This document shows positions 35,804-43,188 of a stretch of DNA of 64,000 nucleotides, in pieces. Below the pieces are notes generated by a model, which ran no database searches, had not been told where the DNA came from, and saw only the letters and a program-made list of their open reading frames with translations. The position numbers and the translations under genes were made by a program. Numbering within the stretch: the stretch's first letter is position 1; each line of letters begins with the position of its first letter. The DNA lies in IMG/VR virus record IMGVR_UViG_3300001782_000005, positions 1 through 64,000 of that record. One strand, given 5' to 3'. The DNA comes from a virus.

Positions 35804-36012
35804 TTGCCTTTCTCCTCTTTAAATCTTGGGTCATTGGCTATCTGTCTTCCTGCGATATCCATGAAGTCTGCCATACCACAATATGGACATTGGGGAATTT
35901 TTTCACCCGGATCAACTCCTTGAATATACATATTATCTGGAAGAACAGTGTTATGCTTCGCTGGATCGTACTCCTTTTTACACTTATAACACTCAGTTAG
36001 ATTTGACACCAT
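35800..36012 (-). CDS. Small zinc-ribbon protein (70 aa)
   Basis: Two Cys pairs, CYKC near residue 8 and CPYC near 42, make a single zinc ribbon. The C-terminus is charged (DPRFKEEKGK). The start is taken at the ATG at 36012 inside the end of the previous gene; a GTG three bases on is also possible. Function unknown. Confidence 0.6.
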   Translation of the reverse strand: MVSNLTECYKCKKEYDPAKHNTVLPDNMYIQGVDPGEKIPQCPYCGMADFMDIAGRQIANDPRFKEEKGK

Positions 36013-36280
36013 CAACCTCCATCCTTGTAATTGTTAGTATGATTTTTGGAGCATCCTCTGGTTTTTCGTCTATCACTTCTCGAATCACTTTGAGGATTAC
36101 CTCAATCTCGGAACTATACTTCTTATCCAAGAAAGATTCTGGACAGACATCACATTTAAATGATTCGTACCCCTCAAAAACCTGTTCATGACCTTTATAG
36201 GTAAAGTTTATAGGATCAATGGTTAACAATAATCTTCCTTTAAGACACACTGGGCATAACATACCGTGTTTATATTCCAT
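35993..36280 (-). CDS. YgiT/MqsA-type zinc-finger protein (95 aa)
   Basis: CPVCLKGRL (9-17) and FKCDVCPESF (41-50), with a YKGHEQVFEGYESF strand between, match the YgiT-type zinc finger of MqsA-like antitoxins. The remaining 45 residues form a helix and strand but no visible helix-turn-helix, and no MqsR-like toxin gene is adjacent. It may be a standalone zinc-finger regulator. GAGGTAG precedes the ATG. Confidence 0.55.
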   Translation of the reverse strand: MEYKHGMLCPVCLKGRLLLTIDPINFTYKGHEQVFEGYESFKCDVCPESFLDKKYSSEIEVILKVIREVIDEKPEDAPKIILTITRMEVDGVKSN

Positions 36281-36282
36281 AT

Positions 36283-36615
36283 CTACCTCAATGATTCGTG
36301 AAAACGAATATGAAATTTAGGACTATCAAATCCACTTCTAAGACAATAGTCAAAAACTTCTCCAGCAGGGTCATAGTTTTCATCTCCAAAGATAAGATTG
36401 TGTCTTCCCTTACTTAGCGGGAATCCATAACTTTTATTCAGAGAATCAATTATTTGCTGTTGTGAGTGTCTAAAATCATAATATATCATCTGGGCAGGCA
36501 AATCGCCCATCCATAAGTGTTTTACAAATTCATCTGCTGTCAAGATATCAACGTAGACATCAATCATATAAGACGTTGATGAACTATTTGTTACGAAATC
36601 TGCTTTTGCTTTCAT
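36283..36615 (-). CDS. DFVTNSSS-family protein 1 (110 aa)
   Basis: The protein starts MKAKADFVTNSSSTSYMI, sharing the DFVTNSSS leader with four other proteins encoded at 39.9-41.8 kb. The remainder (DVYVDILTADEFVKHL, GEVFDYCLRSGFDSP) is alpha/beta and only loosely similar to the others. TAGGAGTG precedes the ATG. I recall similar N-termini on many uncharacterised bacterial and phage proteins; no function is known to me. Confidence 0.75.
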   Translation of the reverse strand: MKAKADFVTNSSSTSYMIDVYVDILTADEFVKHLWMGDLPAQMIYYDFRHSQQQIIDSLNKSYGFPLSKGRHNLIFGDENYDPAGEVFDYCLRSGFDSPKFHIRFHESLR

Positions 36616-36982
36616 TTACTTCCATCACTCCTAGATTTATGAGTAGTACTAATGCTTCTCTGAATCTAAGTGTAATCCAAAGAGCGGCCATATTAGCTAC
36701 AAAGTCCCCAAACATTGAAGCGAGTACAGATAGAGTTGCAGTCAACATAATTGTGGTAATTGTAAGATTAATATGTGTTGATTCATATGGTCGCCTAAAT
36801 ACAGTAAGCGCAATTGTAGAATAAAAGATCACAAGTAGTAGATAACCAAATTGGCCCTTAAATACTACAGGATAAAGGAAAAGTACAGCAATACTAATAA
36901 GATATATTGGTGTATCTTTCACAAAGGCCGCCGCTATATCTCTACGATCTATTGACTTCAACCAATATTGTCTGAGGTTCAC
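36584..36982 (-). CDS. Integral membrane protein with about four helices (132 aa)
   Basis: The GTG at 36982 is chosen because AAGGAGG lies 8-9 bases before it; an earlier GTG touches the ribosome site. Hydrophobic stretches include TPIYLISIAVLFLYPVVF, FGYLLLVIFYSTIALTVF, ITTIMLTATLSVLASMF and MAALWITL...ALVLLINLGV. Its end overlaps the next gene by 32 bases. A terminator-like hairpin sits directly upstream of its ribosome site, so its expression may be conditional. No family recognised. Confidence 0.65.
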   Translation of the reverse strand: MNLRQYWLKSIDRRDIAAAFVKDTPIYLISIAVLFLYPVVFKGQFGYLLLVIFYSTIALTVFRRPYESTHINLTITTIMLTATLSVLASMFGDFVANMAALWITLRFREALVLLINLGVMEVNESKSRFRNK

Positions 36983-36999
36983 TAATATCACCTCCTTAG

Positions 37000-37083
37000 A
37001 AAAAAAAGTGCCCGGGCAGGCGATCAGTTAGGACGAACCTCCGTAGAGGCCTGGGGCCTGACCAATCACACCACACCGGGCAC
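37000..37083 (-). terminator. Long rod-like hairpin with U8 tract (terminator or attenuator)
   Basis: On the minus strand GTGCCCGG and CCGGGCAC close the element. GATTGGTCAGG pairs with CCTAACTGATC further in (two wobbles, one mismatch), and a CCTC-TACG-GAGG tip carries a stable UACG loop. Eight U residues follow immediately, then the AAGGAGG of the membrane-protein gene. It separates the OmpA-like gene from the next gene as a terminator, possibly one allowing regulated read-through. Confidence 0.8.
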
Positions 37084-37109
37084 ACCATAACTACCAGATA
37101 GGTAGTCTT

Positions 37110-37823
37110 CTACTTGTATTGAATGATCTCAACACGACGGTTTTTCTGCCTGTTGAATGGACTGTCTTTCCCGCCCACTAGGTTGGGAAATAGTGGGAAG
37201 AGTTCACCCTTGGCCTTGATTGAGTGAATCTGACTGGGGTTTACACCCTGCTTGATAAGATGGTTCTCAGAAGACCTAGCACGCCTTTCAGATAGTCCTT
37301 GGTTGTACTCTTCCGAACCAAAGGAGTCAGTATGACCAATAATAACAACTTTGACGTCCGGGTTAGCTTTTAGGTCCTCAGCTACCCTATCAAGAACCTC
37401 GGCCGCATCTGGTCTGATGTTTGATTTGTCGAAGTCGAATAGTGCGTTATCCCATTTGAGGACAACAGGTTTGACTTCTTCAACAACAGGAGCCGCCTGA
37501 CAATCACAGGCCTCTTGTGCTTTTGCAAGTGCCTGCTTAATCAGATCCCAGGCTTCTGCACTATCACATCTTACCCATGCATCATAAGCGGCGGCCTTCA
37601 ACCTCTGTGCCTCGTTGTAGATATCGGGGCAATTCTTCATTCCGTTCTTCTCACATTCTTTTAGTTTTGCCTCGACCTCCATTAAGGCATCAGAAAAACC
37701 TTGGTTCTCCATTTCGGTCGAATAGACCTGAAGTGGTTGTTCCGGGGCCTTTGCCTTTTTAGCACATGCTACTGGAAGTACCAGAAAGAGTGCTAGTGAG
37801 ATTAACAATAATTTCCTCGCCAT
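37110..37823 (-). CDS. OmpA/Pal-like peptidoglycan-binding lipoprotein (237 aa)
   Basis: A signal peptide with lipobox LPVAC (Cys20) is followed by a Cys-containing helical spacer (about 40-110) and an OmpA-like domain (about 125-237). The domain shows FDFDKSNIRPDA, the core GHTDSFGSEEYNQGLSERRA and the terminal NRRVEI. The Asp and Arg used to bind diaminopimelate in the peptidoglycan stem are present in the core. It should be anchored in the host outer membrane and bind the cell wall. Its codon use is visibly richer in G and C than its neighbours', which suggests recent acquisition from a bacterial host. AAAGGAGG precedes the ATG. Confidence 0.87.
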   Translation of the reverse strand: MARKLLLISLALFLVLPVACAKKAKAPEQPLQVYSTEMENQGFSDALMEVEAKLKECEKNGMKNCPDIYNEAQRLKAAAYDAWVRCDSAEAWDLIKQALAKAQEACDCQAAPVVEEVKPVVLKWDNALFDFDKSNIRPDAAEVLDRVAEDLKANPDVKVVIIGHTDSFGSEEYNQGLSERRARSSENHLIKQGVNPSQIHSIKAKGELFPLFPNLVGGKDSPFNRQKNRRVEIIQYK

Positions 37824-37842
37824 GTCTTAATTCCTCCTTTCA

Positions 37843-38970
37843 CTATTTGCTTTCTCCGAATAAAAACCTGAATTTGATTTCACCTGATACATTAAGATTC
37901 AGATCAAATCTTCTGTCCACAGAATTAAGAATGTCAGCAATAGCTTTAGTTATTCCTTCAGCTACATCTTCGACTCCCTTCTTAACTTCTGCTTCTAATT
38001 CTTTTAGTTTCCGTTCCGTATCGTCAACCACTTCCTCAGGTTTCGGTTCTACCTTTGGAACTTCAACTTTTGGTTTATCGAATTTTGGGCCACGAGTGTA
38101 GAATTCTTCAGCAAAATCAGATGGAGAACTGAAAAGCTCTTTTCCAAACTCAACTTTACGTCTCAGTCTCCTTGCTCCTCCCACCCCGATATTTTCAATA
38201 ACTAATAGATCTCTCATTCGATTATCAATTCTTGAGAGTAGGGAAGATGCTGAACGCTTAGATATTCCAAGAGTGCCTGCTACATCTTCAGTCACGGCCC
38301 ACGCCTCATCTCCTTCTAACTTACTTTTTGCGTAGAGATACATTAAAGCACCACGCATCAAATCTTTTGATCTGGGTTGTTTCGTTACTTTTGTTGGTTT
38401 TGGTTTCATCCGTGGTTTGACTGGCCTTACTTTCTTTTTCTTCCTCTCATCTCGACGATAATACTCTTCAACAAATTCTTTTGCGTTGTCAAATGGAATA
38501 TCGTCTTTCACACGCCGTAAGATCTTCTTTTCATCAAACTTTCTCTCAAGAAGATCCCCCATCTTTCTGTCGATGGCAGTCATTACTGACGATGACGTAG
38601 TTTTTGGAACTTCTAAGTGAATAGATAACTCCTCCGTACCTATCCATTTTTCGGTTCCATAAGTTTGATCAAAAAGGAAAGCTAAGGCCACCATGGTCCT
38701 ATCCGATCTCCTTTTTTTCACCATTTTTAACATCCTCTCAAATTCAATTTGTTTAATTTCATCTTTTGAAAATTGTCTAACTGGTCCGTGTTTTCCCCTC
38801 CTTTCTGAATTTCTAATTTTTACAAATTTTCTTTTACACTTAGACATCTTAATTAGATCTTCAAGAATTGACTCTCTAGTTTCCGGACACTCAATTCCAA
38901 GGTTTGTGGGATCTAATGGGATGCCTTCAAGAGTAATGCCTCTGAGATTTGGAACTGTAGTAGTTGTCAT
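37843..38970 (-). CDS. Protein with two winged-helix-like repeats (375 aa)
   Basis: A basic N-terminal part (about 40-90) precedes a duplicated domain. Copy 1 (about 92-170) contains ALAFLFDQTYGTEKWIGTEE and TTSSSVMTAIDRKMGDLL. Copy 2 (about 205-285) contains ALMYLYAKSKLEGDEAWAVT and RSASSLLSRIDNRMRDLL. Both end with F-EEFY/VEEYY. The pattern looks like a winged helix that reads DNA. Between them is a Lys/Pro/Arg linker. The C-terminus (about 315-375) is a coiled-coil helix plus a short beta tail. A DNA-binding or nucleoid role is likely; the regulon is unknown. GAGGAGAG precedes the ATG. Confidence 0.6.
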   Translation of the reverse strand: MTTTTVPNLRGITLEGIPLDPTNLGIECPETRESILEDLIKMSKCKRKFVKIRNSERRGKHGPVRQFSKDEIKQIEFERMLKMVKKRRSDRTMVALAFLFDQTYGTEKWIGTEELSIHLEVPKTTSSSVMTAIDRKMGDLLERKFDEKKILRRVKDDIPFDNAKEFVEEYYRRDERKKKKVRPVKPRMKPKPTKVTKQPRSKDLMRGALMYLYAKSKLEGDEAWAVTEDVAGTLGISKRSASSLLSRIDNRMRDLLVIENIGVGGARRLRRKVEFGKELFSSPSDFAEEFYTRGPKFDKPKVEVPKVEPKPEEVVDDTERKLKELEAEVKKGVEDVAEGITKAIADILNSVDRRFDLNLNVSGEIKFRFLFGESK

Positions 38971-38989
38971 TTCCCACTCTCCTCTGATA

Positions 38990-39192
38990 TTTGGGAAGAA
39001 ATAGGGGGTTACAATCCTTTTTCGTCAGGGCATGGACCCCCGGCCATATCTATCCCTTAGCCAAATAAAAGACCATTCCGAAAGGGTTTTCCGGCACGTC
39101 AGAATCTAGTCTTATACCACAGGATTGCAGGTGGCCAGAGGAGTTTCGTGCCAACCACCATATCTGCTAGTGAGGTGGCGACTGGGGGGATA
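38990..39192 (-). ncRNA. Possible structured RNA in a 228-base non-coding gap
   Basis: The gap has no good open frame but much self-complementarity on the minus strand: CCCCCC near 39185 with GGGGGT near 39043; GGTGG (39164) with CCACC (39134); GGCACG with CGTGCC; and CAATCC (39128) with GGATTG (39018). Base composition is richer in G and C than the flanks. No tRNA, tmRNA or known riboswitch pattern was recognised. It could be a phage small RNA or the leader of the winged-helix gene. Orientation is assumed from neighbours. Confidence 0.45.
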
Positions 39193-39198
39193 AACTAT

Positions 39199-39981
39199 TT
39201 AATCAAGGAAGGTTACACCTGCACTCCAACGTCCCTCGAACTCACGGTTCATTACAACCAGGTGCCATCCTTGTAACTTAAGGGTCTTGTGATCTGGATG
39301 ACTGATTGTCCCTCTTGCATAAACACTTTCAACTCGGGACATTTCTCGCATAATTTCATTACCTTCTTTATCATAACGACCAGTACCAACAAGTGTTGTC
39401 CGTGAACCAGTCCTTATGACTTCAGAAGCTATATGCGGTCTACCTGCCATACGACCACGAACCATTCTAACTAGAGGTTCATTAGTATGAATGTGATTTC
39501 CTTCTTCCTCAAAATCTGGTTGAGGGATAAAATACCACTCTCCCTGCCTTAAAACCTTTTCTCCCCTCCTTTCTGCTTCTATGACAGGGTCTCTTTTTAG
39601 ACTATCAATAGCTTGCTCGACTGTAGTTACACGAGCATCACTTGGAAGATTTGCAATGAAATATTCTCTCTCGTCATGACCACATAGGAGACGATCAATA
39701 ATACCCGGTTCATTTTCAACTCCCAATAGAATATGACGAGTCTCAGGTCGATAAGAAAGAACCTTTATACGCTCATGGTTATCAATGAAAAGGATGAATT
39801 TCTCACCCTTACGAGTACGGAGAATATCAAATGCAAAATCTGGATCTGGCTCTCTAGTAAAACTTCTTATCCTCCTATTCCAAACGCTCTCAGCCTCTTG
39901 CCTATCATTACGAACATCAATCTCAAGATTGCACCGACTGAAGTGCTTTTTCAGAACTTTCTTCCAATGGTCGTACTGCAT
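39199..39981 (-). CDS. Unrecognised soluble protein (260 aa)
   Basis: The ATG at 39981 (MQYDHWKK) is chosen because GGGAAGGA precedes it; an upstream in-frame GTG lacks a ribosome site. The N-terminal ~100 residues look alpha/beta (FAFDILRTRKGEKFILFID). The middle carries VLRQGEWYFIPQPDF (about 146-160) and the C-terminus ends GTISHPDHKTLKLQGWHLVV and NREFEG. The His/Asp pairs (SHPDH) could bind metal, but no family is recognised. It overlaps the upstream DFVTNSSS gene by 59 bases, implying cotranscription. Confidence 0.65.
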   Translation of the reverse strand: MQYDHWKKVLKKHFSRCNLEIDVRNDRQEAESVWNRRIRSFTREPDPDFAFDILRTRKGEKFILFIDNHERIKVLSYRPETRHILLGVENEPGIIDRLLCGHDEREYFIANLPSDARVTTVEQAIDSLKRDPVIEAERRGEKVLRQGEWYFIPQPDFEEEGNHIHTNEPLVRMVRGRMAGRPHIASEVIRTGSRTTLVGTGRYDKEGNEIMREMSRVESVYARGTISHPDHKTLKLQGWHLVVMNREFEGRWSAGVTFLD

Positions 39982-40375
39982 CTGAAATCCTTCCCTTCTG
40001 TTTGTCACTAAATTTAGCTAATTTTTCTTTGATCTTATCAATGTGTGCACCAACATTTAAGATAATATATGGCGCACCAGCAGGAGTATCAATCCTTTCA
40101 ACAATTACTCCTAACTCGTTAAGAACCCTTAGAGTATAATCAAAAACCTCTGGGCAGTCGTAAAAGTCCTCCGAACTTACACTCCCATCCATTAAAAGCA
40201 TATCAAAACTCGTGATAACATCATCTATGTGAACTCGTGAATTATCGAGAATATTAGCGTGTTCACGTATACTAAGAAAATTCCTAACATCAAAACAGTT
40301 AGGTAAAACAACTATGTAATTGATAGAGGAACTATTTGTTACAAAATCTGATTTGATCTTCAACTTTTCCCCCAT
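39923..40375 (-). CDS. DFVTNSSS-family protein 2 (150 aa)
   Basis: The sequence begins LKIKSDFVTNSSSINYIVV. The ATG overlaps the previous stop (TAATG), but a TTG four codons on, with GGGGGA before it, would give the same MKIKSDF start as the paralogues. The body (PNCFDVRNFLSIREHANILD, VIVERIDTPAGAPYIILNVG) closely parallels protein 5 at 41383-41805 (PSEFKLQDHLSMLEKGGIF, NLIVNIG), so these two are recent paralogues. The final ~25 residues overlap the next gene. Function unknown. Confidence 0.75.
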   Translation of the reverse strand: MGEKLKIKSDFVTNSSSINYIVVLPNCFDVRNFLSIREHANILDNSRVHIDDVITSFDMLLMDGSVSSEDFYDCPEVFDYTLRVLNELGVIVERIDTPAGAPYIILNVGAHIDKIKEKLAKFSDKQKGRISDAVRPLEESSEKALQSVQS

Positions 40376-40743
40376 TATTGGTTGGATATTACTTCAAATT
40401 TGATACTCTTAACCTTCTGTAAGAAGAAATGTGTCATATCCGGTCTTACATTAATATGTTCCATAATTATATGACCCATGTAATACGGAACATTACTATA
40501 ATCGTTGAACATTGAAGTTCCATCCTCCAACCTAAAATTTTTGGAATTAAGCATTGTAATTGTTGGTTGAAAGAATCTGAGATTTTTAAAATCATCTCGA
40601 TAACTATATACATTCTGCATCTTATTCATATAATCACCGAAAAGATTAAAGAAATCATCAAGAGTAAAATCCTCTGTCATCTCTAGAAATAAATAGAAAC
40701 TCGCAGAGCTGCTATTGGTTACGAAATCACTTTTTATCTTCAT
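40375..40743 (-). CDS. DFVTNSSS-family protein 3 (122 aa)
   Basis: Begins MKIKSDFVTNSSSASFYLFL, with GAGG before the ATG. The rest (FTLDDFFNLFGDYMNKM, MGHIIMEHINVRPDMTHFFL) is alpha/beta with little similarity to the other family members outside the leader. It overlaps the upstream zinc-ribbon gene by 17 bases and the downstream start by one, so it is translated within a tightly packed operon. Confidence 0.75.
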   Translation of the reverse strand: MKIKSDFVTNSSSASFYLFLEMTEDFTLDDFFNLFGDYMNKMQNVYSYRDDFKNLRFFQPTITMLNSKNFRLEDGTSMFNDYSNVPYYMGHIIMEHINVRPDMTHFFLQKVKSIKFEVISNQ

Positions 40744-41035
40744 GAAACCTCATCCATTCTTGACCATTATCAGAGATAATTCTCGTAAATAAACGACTAC
40801 AACGTTTACATTTAAAGGTTGTCACATTCCTCATAAATCTTGCTGGCCTTGGTTTCCCTCCACAATCTGGACATATTTGTTTCTCCATTATTAGATAAGT
40901 AAGTTTATCATGGTTTACTTCAAGTTTACCACATATGCTTGAGCAATTAGGAAAAACTATACACTCAACACAAGGGAAACCGTCTGGAAGTAATAATTCA
41001 ATTGGAAGATCGGCCTTAAAGGTGAGGGAACTCAT
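40727..41035 (-). CDS. Zinc-ribbon protein (102 aa)
   Basis: The ATG at 41035 is used (MSSLTFKADLP) because ATGAGGAG lies eight bases upstream. Cys pairs CVEC (about 22-25), CSSIC (31-35), CPDC (about 56-59) and CKRC (about 76-79) predict two zinc sites. It lies between two DFVTNSSS genes and overlaps both by under 25 bases. Function unknown. Confidence 0.65.
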   Translation of the reverse strand: MSSLTFKADLPIELLLPDGFPCVECIVFPNCSSICGKLEVNHDKLTYLIMEKQICPDCGGKPRPARFMRNVTTFKCKRCSRLFTRIISDNGQEWMRFHEDKK

Positions 41036-41417
41036 GACCACACTCCTCATAGTAACTATTCTCTCCATAACTTGCAGGAAATATATCATGGTCCATGTCT
41101 GAGAGAGATTCATCTCTTAATACCCACACAATCCATCTACTATTTGATTCTTTAGCGTAGTGGAGTACGTGTGAATATAATAATGACTGGTATTCATTTG
41201 CGAGTACATGATCTTTAGTATGGACAGCAGCATCTATATATTTATGTATTGTTTCTCTAATATGATCTGCACTATCCCACTCCCTACCATACGACTGTAA
41301 ATAAGCTATCGCCTCTTCTTTTGTAAATTTGGTTTCTGGATCTTTCTCGTATTTTTTCCAGTTGATTACAAAAGCAGTTGAGCTACTGTTTGTCACGAAG
41401 TCTTGTTTTATCTTCAA
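41016..41417 (-). CDS. DFVTNSSS-family protein 4 (133 aa)
   Basis: Starts at TTG with GGAGG six bases before it, giving MKIKQDFVTNSSSTAFVINW. The body is helical (FTKEEAIAYLQSYGREWDSA, TIHKYIDAAVHTKDHVLANE) and ends in a Cys/His pair (YYEECGHEF). It overlaps the upstream paralogue by 35 bases. Confidence 0.75.
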   Translation of the reverse strand: MKIKQDFVTNSSSTAFVINWKKYEKDPETKFTKEEAIAYLQSYGREWDSADHIRETIHKYIDAAVHTKDHVLANEYQSLLYSHVLHYAKESNSRWIVWVLRDESLSDMDHDIFPASYGENSYYEECGHEFPHL

Positions 41418-41805
41418 TTAATCCTCCAATCTCCTTTATTCTATTAAAGATATCAGCTAATCCAATATTCACTATGAGGTTATTACCTTCATAAGGTAAA
41501 TCGTAATCTGCTATTATAAAGTTGAGATCTCTGCAGATATCTATTACAATCCACATATATAATCGACTGCTATCAAACAAAAGGTTTTCAATTATGTTTC
41601 CCTCTTCAAGGAGTTTGTCGAAAAAATTCTCTATCATATTGACTTGCATTCCATCATCACTGAATTCCATATAGCTCTCGAAACGATTAAAGATTCCTCC
41701 CTTTTCTAACATTGATAGATGATCTTGTAATTTAAATTCTGATGGAATCATAACGACATAACAAGTAGAAGAACTGTTAGTTACAAAGTCAGATTTAACC
41801 TTCAC
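41383..41805 (-). CDS. DFVTNSSS-family protein 5 (140 aa)
   Basis: Starts at GTG with GGAGAAA before it, giving MKVKSDFVTNSSSTCYVVMI. Its body resembles protein 2 (39923-40375) along its length, including the DHL/NFL segment and the closing LIVNIGLADIFNRIKEI. The start overlaps the upstream GNAT gene's stop by four bases, so the GNAT and this family are cotranscribed. Confidence 0.75.
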   Translation of the reverse strand: MKVKSDFVTNSSSTCYVVMIPSEFKLQDHLSMLEKGGIFNRFESYMEFSDDGMQVNMIENFFDKLLEEGNIIENLLFDSSRLYMWIVIDICRDLNFIIADYDLPYEGNNLIVNIGLADIFNRIKEIGGLIEDKTRLRDKQ

Positions 41806-42176
41806 TCTTTCTCCTTTGGAAATCTAATAACTACAGATTCAGTTACTTCGATAAACCCGTATTTTCCAAACCACACTTTCAACTCTTCTAAATTCATTCT
41901 TCCATACGGATTTATTGGGTTGATAATTGCGATACCCTTCTCATCACAAAGTTCAACCAAACGCTTCATTAAGACTGTACCATGACCCTTCCCTTCTTCC
42001 ATCGACTTTATTCTATGAAAGAAGAACAAAGGATGTGAACATTCTATATTATAACCTGATAGAAATTCTTTGTGTTTTTGCATTCCAAATGCTGATAACT
42101 CGCAAATTGCTCCTCTGTTAGTCATTAGGCAGATAACTTCATCAGTGATGGTTTCATGCATTATCCTTGGCTCCAT
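41802..42176 (-). CDS. Small GNAT-like acetyltransferase (124 aa)
   Basis: EEGKGHGTVLMKRLVELCDE (about 60-79) is the acetyl-CoA pyrophosphate-binding motif (Q/RxxGxG/A form: GKGHGT). LKVWFGKYGFIEV (about 100-112) is the typical GNAT C-terminal YGF segment. The start at 42176 follows AAGGAG. It lies between a radical SAM gene and a DFVTNSSS gene in one operon, so its substrate may be one of these proteins (inference). Confidence 0.8.
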   Translation of the reverse strand: MEPRIMHETITDEVICLMTNRGAICELSAFGMQKHKEFLSGYNIECSHPLFFFHRIKSMEEGKGHGTVLMKRLVELCDEKGIAIINPINPYGRMNLEELKVWFGKYGFIEVTESVVIRFPKEKE

Positions 42177-42186
42177 TGCCAACTCC

Positions 42187-43188
42187 TTAGAATCCAAATG
42201 GACACTTTTCTCTATTTTGTTTTAGTGTCAACCTAGTTGATACAAAACCACGACTATTATTCCATGCCCTTTTGATAGACATTTTACGCAGGGAAATACC
42301 GCGTCTGCTGTGATCTGCAAATGAACATGGAACTAACATCATATCCGGACTTATATAGCATGACATACGAGCAGCCTCGCATGTATCAAGGAACATCTCC
42401 TCACTCTTGGTCAGACTTGTAATTTGCACAAGTCTATTAACGAGACATGAATCCATGCCTATTTTGAATTTTGTTTTACCTGCCAACCTTAGATCAACAA
42501 ACTCTTTCAACTCACCGTTTGTTAGACTCCAATTCTTCAAATCTTTTCCTCTGCCCTGCGGTTTGAACAATAGGAAAATGACAGCATTTAATTGATCTAG
42601 ATCAATCTTTCCGCTCCAAACATCTTCACCTTTGAGAATATTTACTGCTTTTTCCAAGGATTTTTTAGACAATAGAAAATGTAGATTTGTCTTTATATCA
42701 GAATCCATGAGTTTTTGTAAAGCTCCAAATGTGAAGTCTTGACCATAGTCCGATACTGCAACGGCCCCACACATCTTTGATATCTCGATGTGTTTGCTTG
42801 TCAGACCTAGACCTGATGTTGTGTAATTGGGGACTACGATATTTTCCCGAGCATAACCAACAATCTCTCCAAAGTTTTCGTGTAAATTTGGATCCCCCCT
42901 TCCTCCTAAGGCCACTTGATTTGTGAAGGTTTTAGATTCATTTATTATCCTCTTAAAATCTTCTAACTTCATATTTGGTTGTTTTTGACTACCTTGATAA
43001 CAAAACTTACACTCATTAGGACAATGGCCCATAATCCCAATATCAATTAAATTTGGGTAGTCAAGCATGAATGGATCAGGAAAACCATGTTTTCCAAAAA
43101 TGATCTCTTTGCCATTTGCCACATTAAAAATAATCACATAGCGATCCGTCTCAACGATCTTTTTCATTCCGACCATTCGTGCGACCAT
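42187..43188 (-). CDS. Radical SAM protein with Cys-rich C-terminus (333 aa)
   Basis: The CxxxCxxC cluster is at C56, C60 and C63 (HCPNECKFCYQG), which binds the [4Fe-4S] that cleaves S-adenosylmethionine. A GGRGDPN segment (about 94-100) matches the SAM-binding GGEP-like motif. The C-terminal part has DTCEAARMSCYISPDMMLVPCSF and a final KCPFGF, arranged like a SPASM/Twitch auxiliary cluster domain. Such enzymes often modify peptides or proteins. AGGAGGG precedes the ATG. It heads the operon leading to the GNAT and DFVTNSSS genes, which makes those proteins candidate substrates; this is a hypothesis. Confidence 0.85.
   Translation of the reverse strand: MVARMVGMKKIVETDRYVIIFNVANGKEIIFGKHGFPDPFMLDYPNLIDIGIMGHCPNECKFCYQGSQKQPNMKLEDFKRIINESKTFTNQVALGGRGDPNLHENFGEIVGYARENIVVPNYTTSGLGLTSKHIEISKMCGAVAVSDYGQDFTFGALQKLMDSDIKTNLHFLLSKKSLEKAVNILKGEDVWSGKIDLDQLNAVIFLLFKPQGRGKDLKNWSLTNGELKEFVDLRLAGKTKFKIGMDSCLVNRLVQITSLTKSEEMFLDTCEAARMSCYISPDMMLVPCSFADHSRRGISLRKMSIKRAWNNSRGFVSTRLTLKQNREKCPFGF

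Follow-up and report, generated by a model that had tools for sequence, protein, structure and literature searches.

We analysed a window of 64,000 nucleotides (positions 1 to 64,000 of the 277,131-bp phage record IMGVR_UViG_3300001782_000005) in which five minus-strand proteins start with a shared segment, MK[IV]KxDFVTNSSSxx[FY], and the gene run that encodes four of them is headed by a gene for a radical S-adenosylmethionine (SAM) enzyme. Genome comparison makes it probable that the N-terminus concerned, 18 residues long, is a portable tag that is read and modified by the dedicated radical SAM enzyme encoded with it. A sequence-only reading of the window had located the five DFVTNSSS proteins and taken their common leader for a recognition or processing tag serving export, modification or assembly. 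All five lie where that reading placed them and are the sole copies in the record, which holds exactly five DFVTNSSS sites, all on the minus strand, compared with none for the reversed pattern used as a control. A looser pattern gave no sixth in-frame tag in the 277,131-bp record, and three further candidates (106.6, 183.0 and 63.7 kb) were rejected as they are not in-frame N-terminal tags. The enzyme and the tagged proteins, the latter referred to by their first coordinate and with lengths in amino acids (aa), are as follows.

42187-43188, minus strand: class I radical SAM enzyme, twitch-SPASM, proposed to modify the tag; first gene of the run (phrog_7293, E=2e-31; Radical_SAM, 1.5e-6; co-occurrence)
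41383-41805, minus strand: tagged protein, 140 aa, GTG start at 41805, tag codons 41752-41805 (family of 26; AlphaFold model)
41016-41417, minus strand: tagged protein, 133 aa, TTG start at 41417 with GGAGG upstream, tag codons 41364-41417
40375-40743, minus strand: tagged protein, 122 aa, ATG start at 40743, tag codons 40690-40743
39923-40363, minus strand: tagged protein, 146 aa, TTG start at 40363, tag codons 40310-40363, body paralogous to that of 41383
36283-36615, minus strand: tagged protein, 110 aa, ATG start at 36615, tag codons 36562-36615 (family of 15)

Four of the five tagged genes overlap tightly in the run headed by the radical SAM gene, and the fifth (36283-36615) is found ~3.3 kb past this main cluster. 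The tag starts, several of which (TTG, GTG) the earlier reading had taken as confirmed by ribosome sites, are preceded by purine-rich, Shine-Dalgarno-like sequence. It is strong at 36283, 41016 and 41383, whereas 39923 and 40375 have weaker versions. In the 39923 protein the tag begins at TTG 40363, not at ATG 40375 of the mechanical list of open reading frames. The bodies behind the leader had been described as mostly unrelated, which is correct for 40375 and 41016, neither of which shows kinship to other window bodies. It is not correct for 39923 and 41383, which are paralogues (21% identity, E=9e-6), and 36283 shows at best marginal similarity to 39923 (E=0.03). No domain in Pfam, NCBIfam or PHROGs covers any of the five bodies, and the phrog_7397 match on the window tagged proteins lies mainly over the tag.

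A conserved N-terminus on largely unrelated bodies

Across 337 non-redundant proteins the tag logo reads M K [IV] [RK] x D F V T N S S S x S [FY] [IV] [IV], so that the leader is conserved as first proposed and is longer than had been recognised. N10, S11 and S12 are invariant in this logo, in part through the bias of the search pattern; among tags found via the radical SAM enzyme alone, T, N, S and S are kept in 134/134, the regular expression itself having demanded the N. The tagged proteins range from 51 to 862 aa, and their bodies, mostly 100-860 aa, make up 79 families, of which 41 have a single member. Conservation within families is concentrated in the tag. Most members of the 41383 family share only 17-32% identity with the window protein, and the ten fully invariant columns of this family are all tag positions; the invariant columns of a 43-member cellular tagged family are likewise confined to the tag. 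When these two families were compared profile to profile, the probability of alignment was 99% for the tags and 1.8% for the bodies. Two tagged bacterial proteins are unusually long, with 717 aa (L173:1696-3864) and 477 aa (L174:5549-6988); in both, the tag precedes a small/hydrophobic stretch, which could be membrane-active.

AlphaFold models of two unrelated body families have a mean pLDDT (predicted local distance difference test) of 84 and 91, compared with 51 and 56 for tag residues 1-10. In both models residues 1-12 are without secondary structure, the first strand starts from residue 13, and [FY][IV][IV], with which the tag ends, falls inside this strand. The tag is therefore predicted to be a disordered tail ahead of a folded body, and a Foldseek search of the PDB gave no fold match for either modelled body. 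The sequence-only reading had itself considered that the segment might be a core strand and turn of one fold; its conservation would then serve folding. Such a strand is indeed formed by residues 13-20 in both models, but residues 1-12, the most invariant, are predicted to be disordered, the bodies do not align by profile, and conservation tracks the enzyme and not the body. A common fold is thus an extremely improbable explanation of the tag.

Association of the tag with a radical SAM enzyme

The window enzyme carries the canonical CX3CX2C cluster motif (CPNECKFC), of which the first and third cysteines are found in 26/26 sequences of the class I alignment. It scores 28.9 bits to Pfam Radical_SAM, compared with a cutoff of 29.5 and with 37.9-57.7 bits for its relatives. 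The class I auxiliary cysteines C239, C261 and C279 are invariant and C320 is present in 24/26; the Pfam SPASM model scores above cutoff in relatives and below cutoff in the window protein. Variants of the spacing occur in class I, with ~CX7CX6C in L140, L155 and L168 and CX7CX2C in phages phi5 and D479. NCBIfam matches are far below family cutoffs. A profile of 26 class I enzymes matched SuiB (3e-11), SkfB (1e-10) and PqqE (2e-6) in the PDB, all of them peptide-modifying.

The searches for tag loci used the 20-residue tag alone as query, and gene surroundings were therefore not selected for. Among viral contigs, a class I radical SAM gene lies within 10 kb in 49 of 73 loci, and this family is the top shared one beside tagged proteins (53 of the 78 viral loci analysed, compared with 22 for the next family). 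A one-per-species scan of bacteria and archaea gave 78 tag loci in Bacillota, Deltaproteobacteria, Bacteroidota, Actinobacteria and archaea, and 67-68 of the 78 have the same radical SAM family within 10 kb, in most cases directly next to the tagged gene. In cells, a single tagged gene overlapping a single radical SAM gene is the layout seen most often. The motif search and listing of co-occurring genes that the sequence-only reading had suggested therefore yields this enzyme as the most common partner family in both viral and cellular loci. When the 31 records without the enzyme in the flanks were searched as whole records, it turned up elsewhere in 15; every one of the six viral records of at least 90 kb was among these, and scores were cleanly separated (E <1e-57 versus >1e-15).

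The association was also seen in 393 genomes sampled at random and evenly across one class, seven of which carry the enzyme. The strict tag pattern matched in five genomes, in one of them in a false frame with a stop codon, and all four genomes with a true strict tag have the enzyme. With the seed genome excluded, the three tag genomes all fall within the six enzyme-bearing genomes of 392 (chance ~2e-6). The three enzyme-bearing genomes that lack the strict pattern have variant tags near the radical SAM gene (GFVTNSSS, DYVTNSSS and GYVTNSSS). Starting from the enzyme instead, new viral loci have a tag in the flank in 50 of 75 cases, compared with 2 of 75 for reversed sequences. For phage isolates with sequenced genomes, the enzyme is found in 173 Pseudotevenvirus records, including those of RB43, RB16 and Lw1, and a phi5_28-family tagged protein in 175, with near-identical genus counts; in phage phi5 the tagged gene and the radical SAM gene are ~20 kb apart. 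A tblastn search of phages with the short tag gave no match, and low-complexity filtering may mask Ser runs in such a search. The number of tagged proteins per enzyme varies from one to at least eleven, from unrelated body families.

A sister class supports specific pairing. Rhodothermus phage RM378, Microcystis phage LMM01 and Prevotella Lak phages encode separate radical SAM enzymes whose neighbours are tagged GLSTNSSSSHS or VFETNSSSTHS, and a scan with VFETNSSSxHS found 75 loci, 64 of which have a cognate enzyme of a distinct class (class II). We found no cross-pairing, as loci with tag I have the class I enzyme and loci with tag II the class II enzyme; two tag I loci additionally hold a class II enzyme, and an overlapping stretch of one such contig has tag II. 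The FETNSSS tag had no match in 393 bacterial genomes of one class. The cysteines retained in class II enzymes are just the three of the SAM cluster (67/67), those of auxiliary clusters being absent, and shared chemistry, if any, should therefore not need an auxiliary cluster. Within class I, tag position 4 (K or R) changes seven times on the radical SAM tree, compared with a shuffled mean of 36, and is uniform in 31 of 33 loci with at least three tags (4.3 expected). The same body families are found with both K and R at this position, and position 2 is K in 98% of tags, so that base composition alone does not explain the pattern. These distributions show, at the level of sequence, that tag variant and enzyme travel together, whether by co-inheritance or by adaptation.

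Tag and enzyme are also joined in single polypeptides. A radical SAM protein on a Methylobacterium indicum plasmid (L263) begins MPRIQNLRIGHATNSSSSHSIV, a related tag, and Salmonella phage Arash gp146c (L264:5995-7425), annotated as a methyltransferase, begins MYLTQIRYGFATNSSSSHSVI and combines a tag domain and a radical SAM domain in one protein. Early fusion candidates at L056, L090 and L063 were rejected, since they have inteins and a GIY-YIG-like upstream extension (by eye) and no tag fusion. In L056 (5261-7606) and L090 (7130-9496) the radical SAM gene is split at the same conserved site, just ahead of an ALGG/AMGG motif, by an intein-like insertion with homing-endonuclease-like sequence (by eye).

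Pairing, class matching, fusion and the pattern of conservation are thus established by genome comparison, and the original proposal of a recognition or processing tag is borne out by a dedicated radical SAM enzyme that accompanies the tag across phage, bacterial and archaeal genomes, two of which encode both as a single polypeptide. For the same reason modification is favoured among the three functions first proposed, and export or virion assembly found no support. A short N-terminal tag on varied phage proteins could be expected of a signal for export, virion assembly or compartment targeting that is independent of the enzyme, but bacterial and archaeal loci hold the tag as a two-gene operon with the radical SAM gene, the tag is class-matched to the enzyme, and most tags have no hydrophobic signal core. 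We regard such a signal as having almost no likelihood.

Alternatively, tagged proteins may be partners of the enzyme (adaptors, activators or substrate carriers) that bind it via the tag while the substrate is another molecule. The commonest cellular layout, one tagged gene overlapping one radical SAM gene, is what a two-subunit enzyme would have, and natural fusions fit as well. However, eleven or more unrelated tagged proteins per enzyme in one phage would be unusual for subunits, and the phage loci share no other candidate substrate gene, making this explanation quite unlikely. A somewhat better case, still an unlikely one, can be made for the tag as a recognition leader only, where the enzyme docks to modify residues of the body, as in the leader and core of ribosomally synthesized and post-translationally modified peptides (RiPPs). 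The nearest relatives of the enzyme are leader-dependent peptide maturases, and the one enzyme and many bodies of phages resemble leader-sharing RiPP precursor sets. Against this, the ~79 body families have no residue or motif in common for one enzyme to modify, invariant columns within families are confined to the tag, the bodies are predicted to be folded, and we found neither a recognisable RiPP recognition element (RRE) nor a leader peptidase family common to the loci.

Modification of the tag itself is the explanation we prefer: the radical SAM enzyme most likely binds the tag and modifies it. The enzyme would bind the disordered tail, and its 5'-deoxyadenosyl radical would abstract a hydrogen within the invariant TNSSS region. 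A permanent change, such as a crosslink, Ser oxidation or epimerisation, would then be installed, which the tagged proteins may need for function or recognition. Several observations weigh against this explanation. The evidence is entirely genomic, and the figure for tag conservation is partly biased because the scans demanded [DG]FV[TS]N. Two cellular genomes, the metagenome-assembled G028 and G031, carry the tag without this enzyme. Conversely, 25 of the 75 viral loci found from the enzyme are tagless after searches of the whole records, all of which are fragments of <42 kb; in two of these fragments, untagged homologues (by eye) of the 41383/39923 bodies lie directly downstream of the radical SAM gene (L236:1689-2118 and L248:8614-9130). 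Finally, an RRE was not recognised in the enzyme, where ~45 residues precede the cluster motif and no RRE model matched. PqqE requires a separate RRE protein, and in SuiB the leader occupies the active site (PMC8326336); entry of a tag into the active site without an RRE therefore has precedent.

Two further genes belong to the window cluster.

41802-42197, minus strand: untagged protein, 131 aa, between the radical SAM gene and the first tagged gene and overlapping both (weak phrog_14082; no Pfam match)
40727-41113, minus strand: zinc-ribbon protein within the cluster, true start probably downstream of the one listed (sub-threshold zinc-ribbon matches; sequence)

The 41802-42197 protein resembles a GNAT acetyltransferase by eye (EGKGHGTVLMKRL), yet Pfam gives no match. 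Two bases past the tagged gene 36283-36615 is a gene for an MqsA/YgiT-type zinc-finger protein (35993-36280, minus strand), and between tagged genes lies one for a lipoprotein-like protein with an OmpA/Pal-like C-terminal domain by eye (37110-37823, minus strand).

STAND loci, related systems and possible biological meaning

In 27 of the 78 cellular loci the tag and radical SAM pair adjoins a nucleoside triphosphatase (NTPase) of the STAND (signal transduction ATPases with numerous domains)/NACHT type, and 22 of these 27 have the gene order NTPase, small untagged protein, tagged protein, radical SAM enzyme. The same four-gene order, with a SMEK-domain NTPase, is found on Agrobacterium pAt and Rhodobacter plasmids. 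The NTPase core (nSTAND3/NACHT) scores to Avs2 models down to E=1e-45, and N-terminal effectors include trypsin-like, alpha/beta hydrolase, phosphorylase (PNP), DUF4062 and deoxyribosyltransferase-like domains, some below Pfam cutoffs. A STAND core with exchangeable effectors is characteristic of anti-phage immunity, which suggests that the pair serves immunity in cells. An AbiJ_NTD4 protein (PF18863; L128:11471-12349) lies downstream of one cassette of STAND, untagged, tagged and radical SAM genes, as fits a defence island. Neither the window nor any of the viral class I loci contains a STAND NTPase. Certain tagged proteins of phages, one of them encoded by Vibrio phage D479, have bodies homologous to that of the cellular tagged protein, suggesting that phages may deploy counterparts of immune components; counter-immunity and host takeover are possible roles in phages. 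The labelled protein of cells would work with the Avs-like STAND NTPase, and in phages the labelled small proteins may act in host-phage conflict, for instance as decoys or inhibitors of such systems. More tentatively, a mark written on N-termini by the radical SAM enzyme could be a language common to phages and prokaryotic immunity, in which cells steer an Avs-like STAND NTPase by a marked protein and phages use batteries of marked proteins, cellular homologues among them, to jam or exploit it; we consider this possible and less than likely.

Several known systems share features with the one described here. Like the radical SAM/SPASM maturases of RiPPs (SuiB, SkfB, PqqE, PapB, WgkB and the KxxxW cyclase), the enzyme belongs to this superfamily and is encoded beside its presumed protein partner, a likeness by profile that consists of the PDB matches and of NCBIfam matches far below cutoffs. 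Unlike in RiPP systems, the partner is a folded protein of 100-860 aa whose invariant part lies right at its N-terminus, a single enzyme is shared by many unrelated partners, neither an RRE nor a common leader peptidase was found, and class II enzymes are without auxiliary-cluster cysteines. RiPP precursors are short, a leader plus a core, and the bodies found here are modelled as folded domains. No leader peptidase or transporter family is prominent among the shared genes of tag loci, except for the trypsin-like effectors on some STANDs. Prochlorosins are RiPP precursors that share a leader and are converted by one enzyme, ProcM, into many products, the remainder being a short modified core peptide. 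One enzyme with many products that have a common N-terminal segment and a differing remainder recalls this arrangement, but here the remainder is a folded body and the common segment is itself the likely target. Anaerobic sulfatase-maturating enzymes, which target the motif C/S-x-P/A-x-R, are likewise radical SAM enzymes acting on Ser in a peptide motif of a folded protein, as we infer here; in this case, by contrast, the tag is a terminal tail common to unrelated folds, and that motif is absent from the tag logo.

With regard to conflict systems, known Avs systems have, to our knowledge, no radical SAM enzyme or tagged protein. The 27 cellular loci with an Avs2-scoring NTPase and exchangeable N-terminal effector domains are like Avs/STAND systems; the window phage differs in that its tag and enzyme do not have a STAND gene as neighbour. 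Among published ideas the closest is that of Kaur et al. (2020), who paired radical SAM-SPASM enzymes with FxSxx-type peptides in VMAP ternary conflict systems, where the motif is in a C-terminal peptide and a metallopeptidase is present (PMC7159879). Both are predicted NTP-dependent conflict systems in which a radical SAM enzyme is combined with a peptide that carries a motif, whereas the present tag is N-terminal, of the TNSSS type and found with STAND NTPases or in phages. Among phage families, phrog_7293 (the radical SAM family) and phrog_7397 (one tagged body family) are both unannotated and are defined by bodies; neither describes the tag or connects it with the enzyme. The tagged proteins fall outside every model of Pfam, NCBIfam and PADLOC, and searches with tag strings found no relevant open full-text paper (the one match concerned hemp-seed peptides), subscription journals and preprints being largely outside this search. 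Overall, the joint occurrence of tag and enzyme in phages and cells points to an undescribed protein-labelling system.

If the tag is modified, a single enzyme would label many unrelated folded proteins via a transplantable N-terminal peptide, with new radical chemistry and an easy handle for protein engineering. The system is widespread in phages, including the E. coli phages RB43, RB16 and Lw1, and is therefore directly testable. It would give dozens of phage protein families now called 'hypothetical' a first lead to their function. It also predicts, in bacteria and archaea, an undescribed group of STAND immune cassettes that consist of an NTPase, a small untagged protein, a tagged protein and a radical SAM enzyme.

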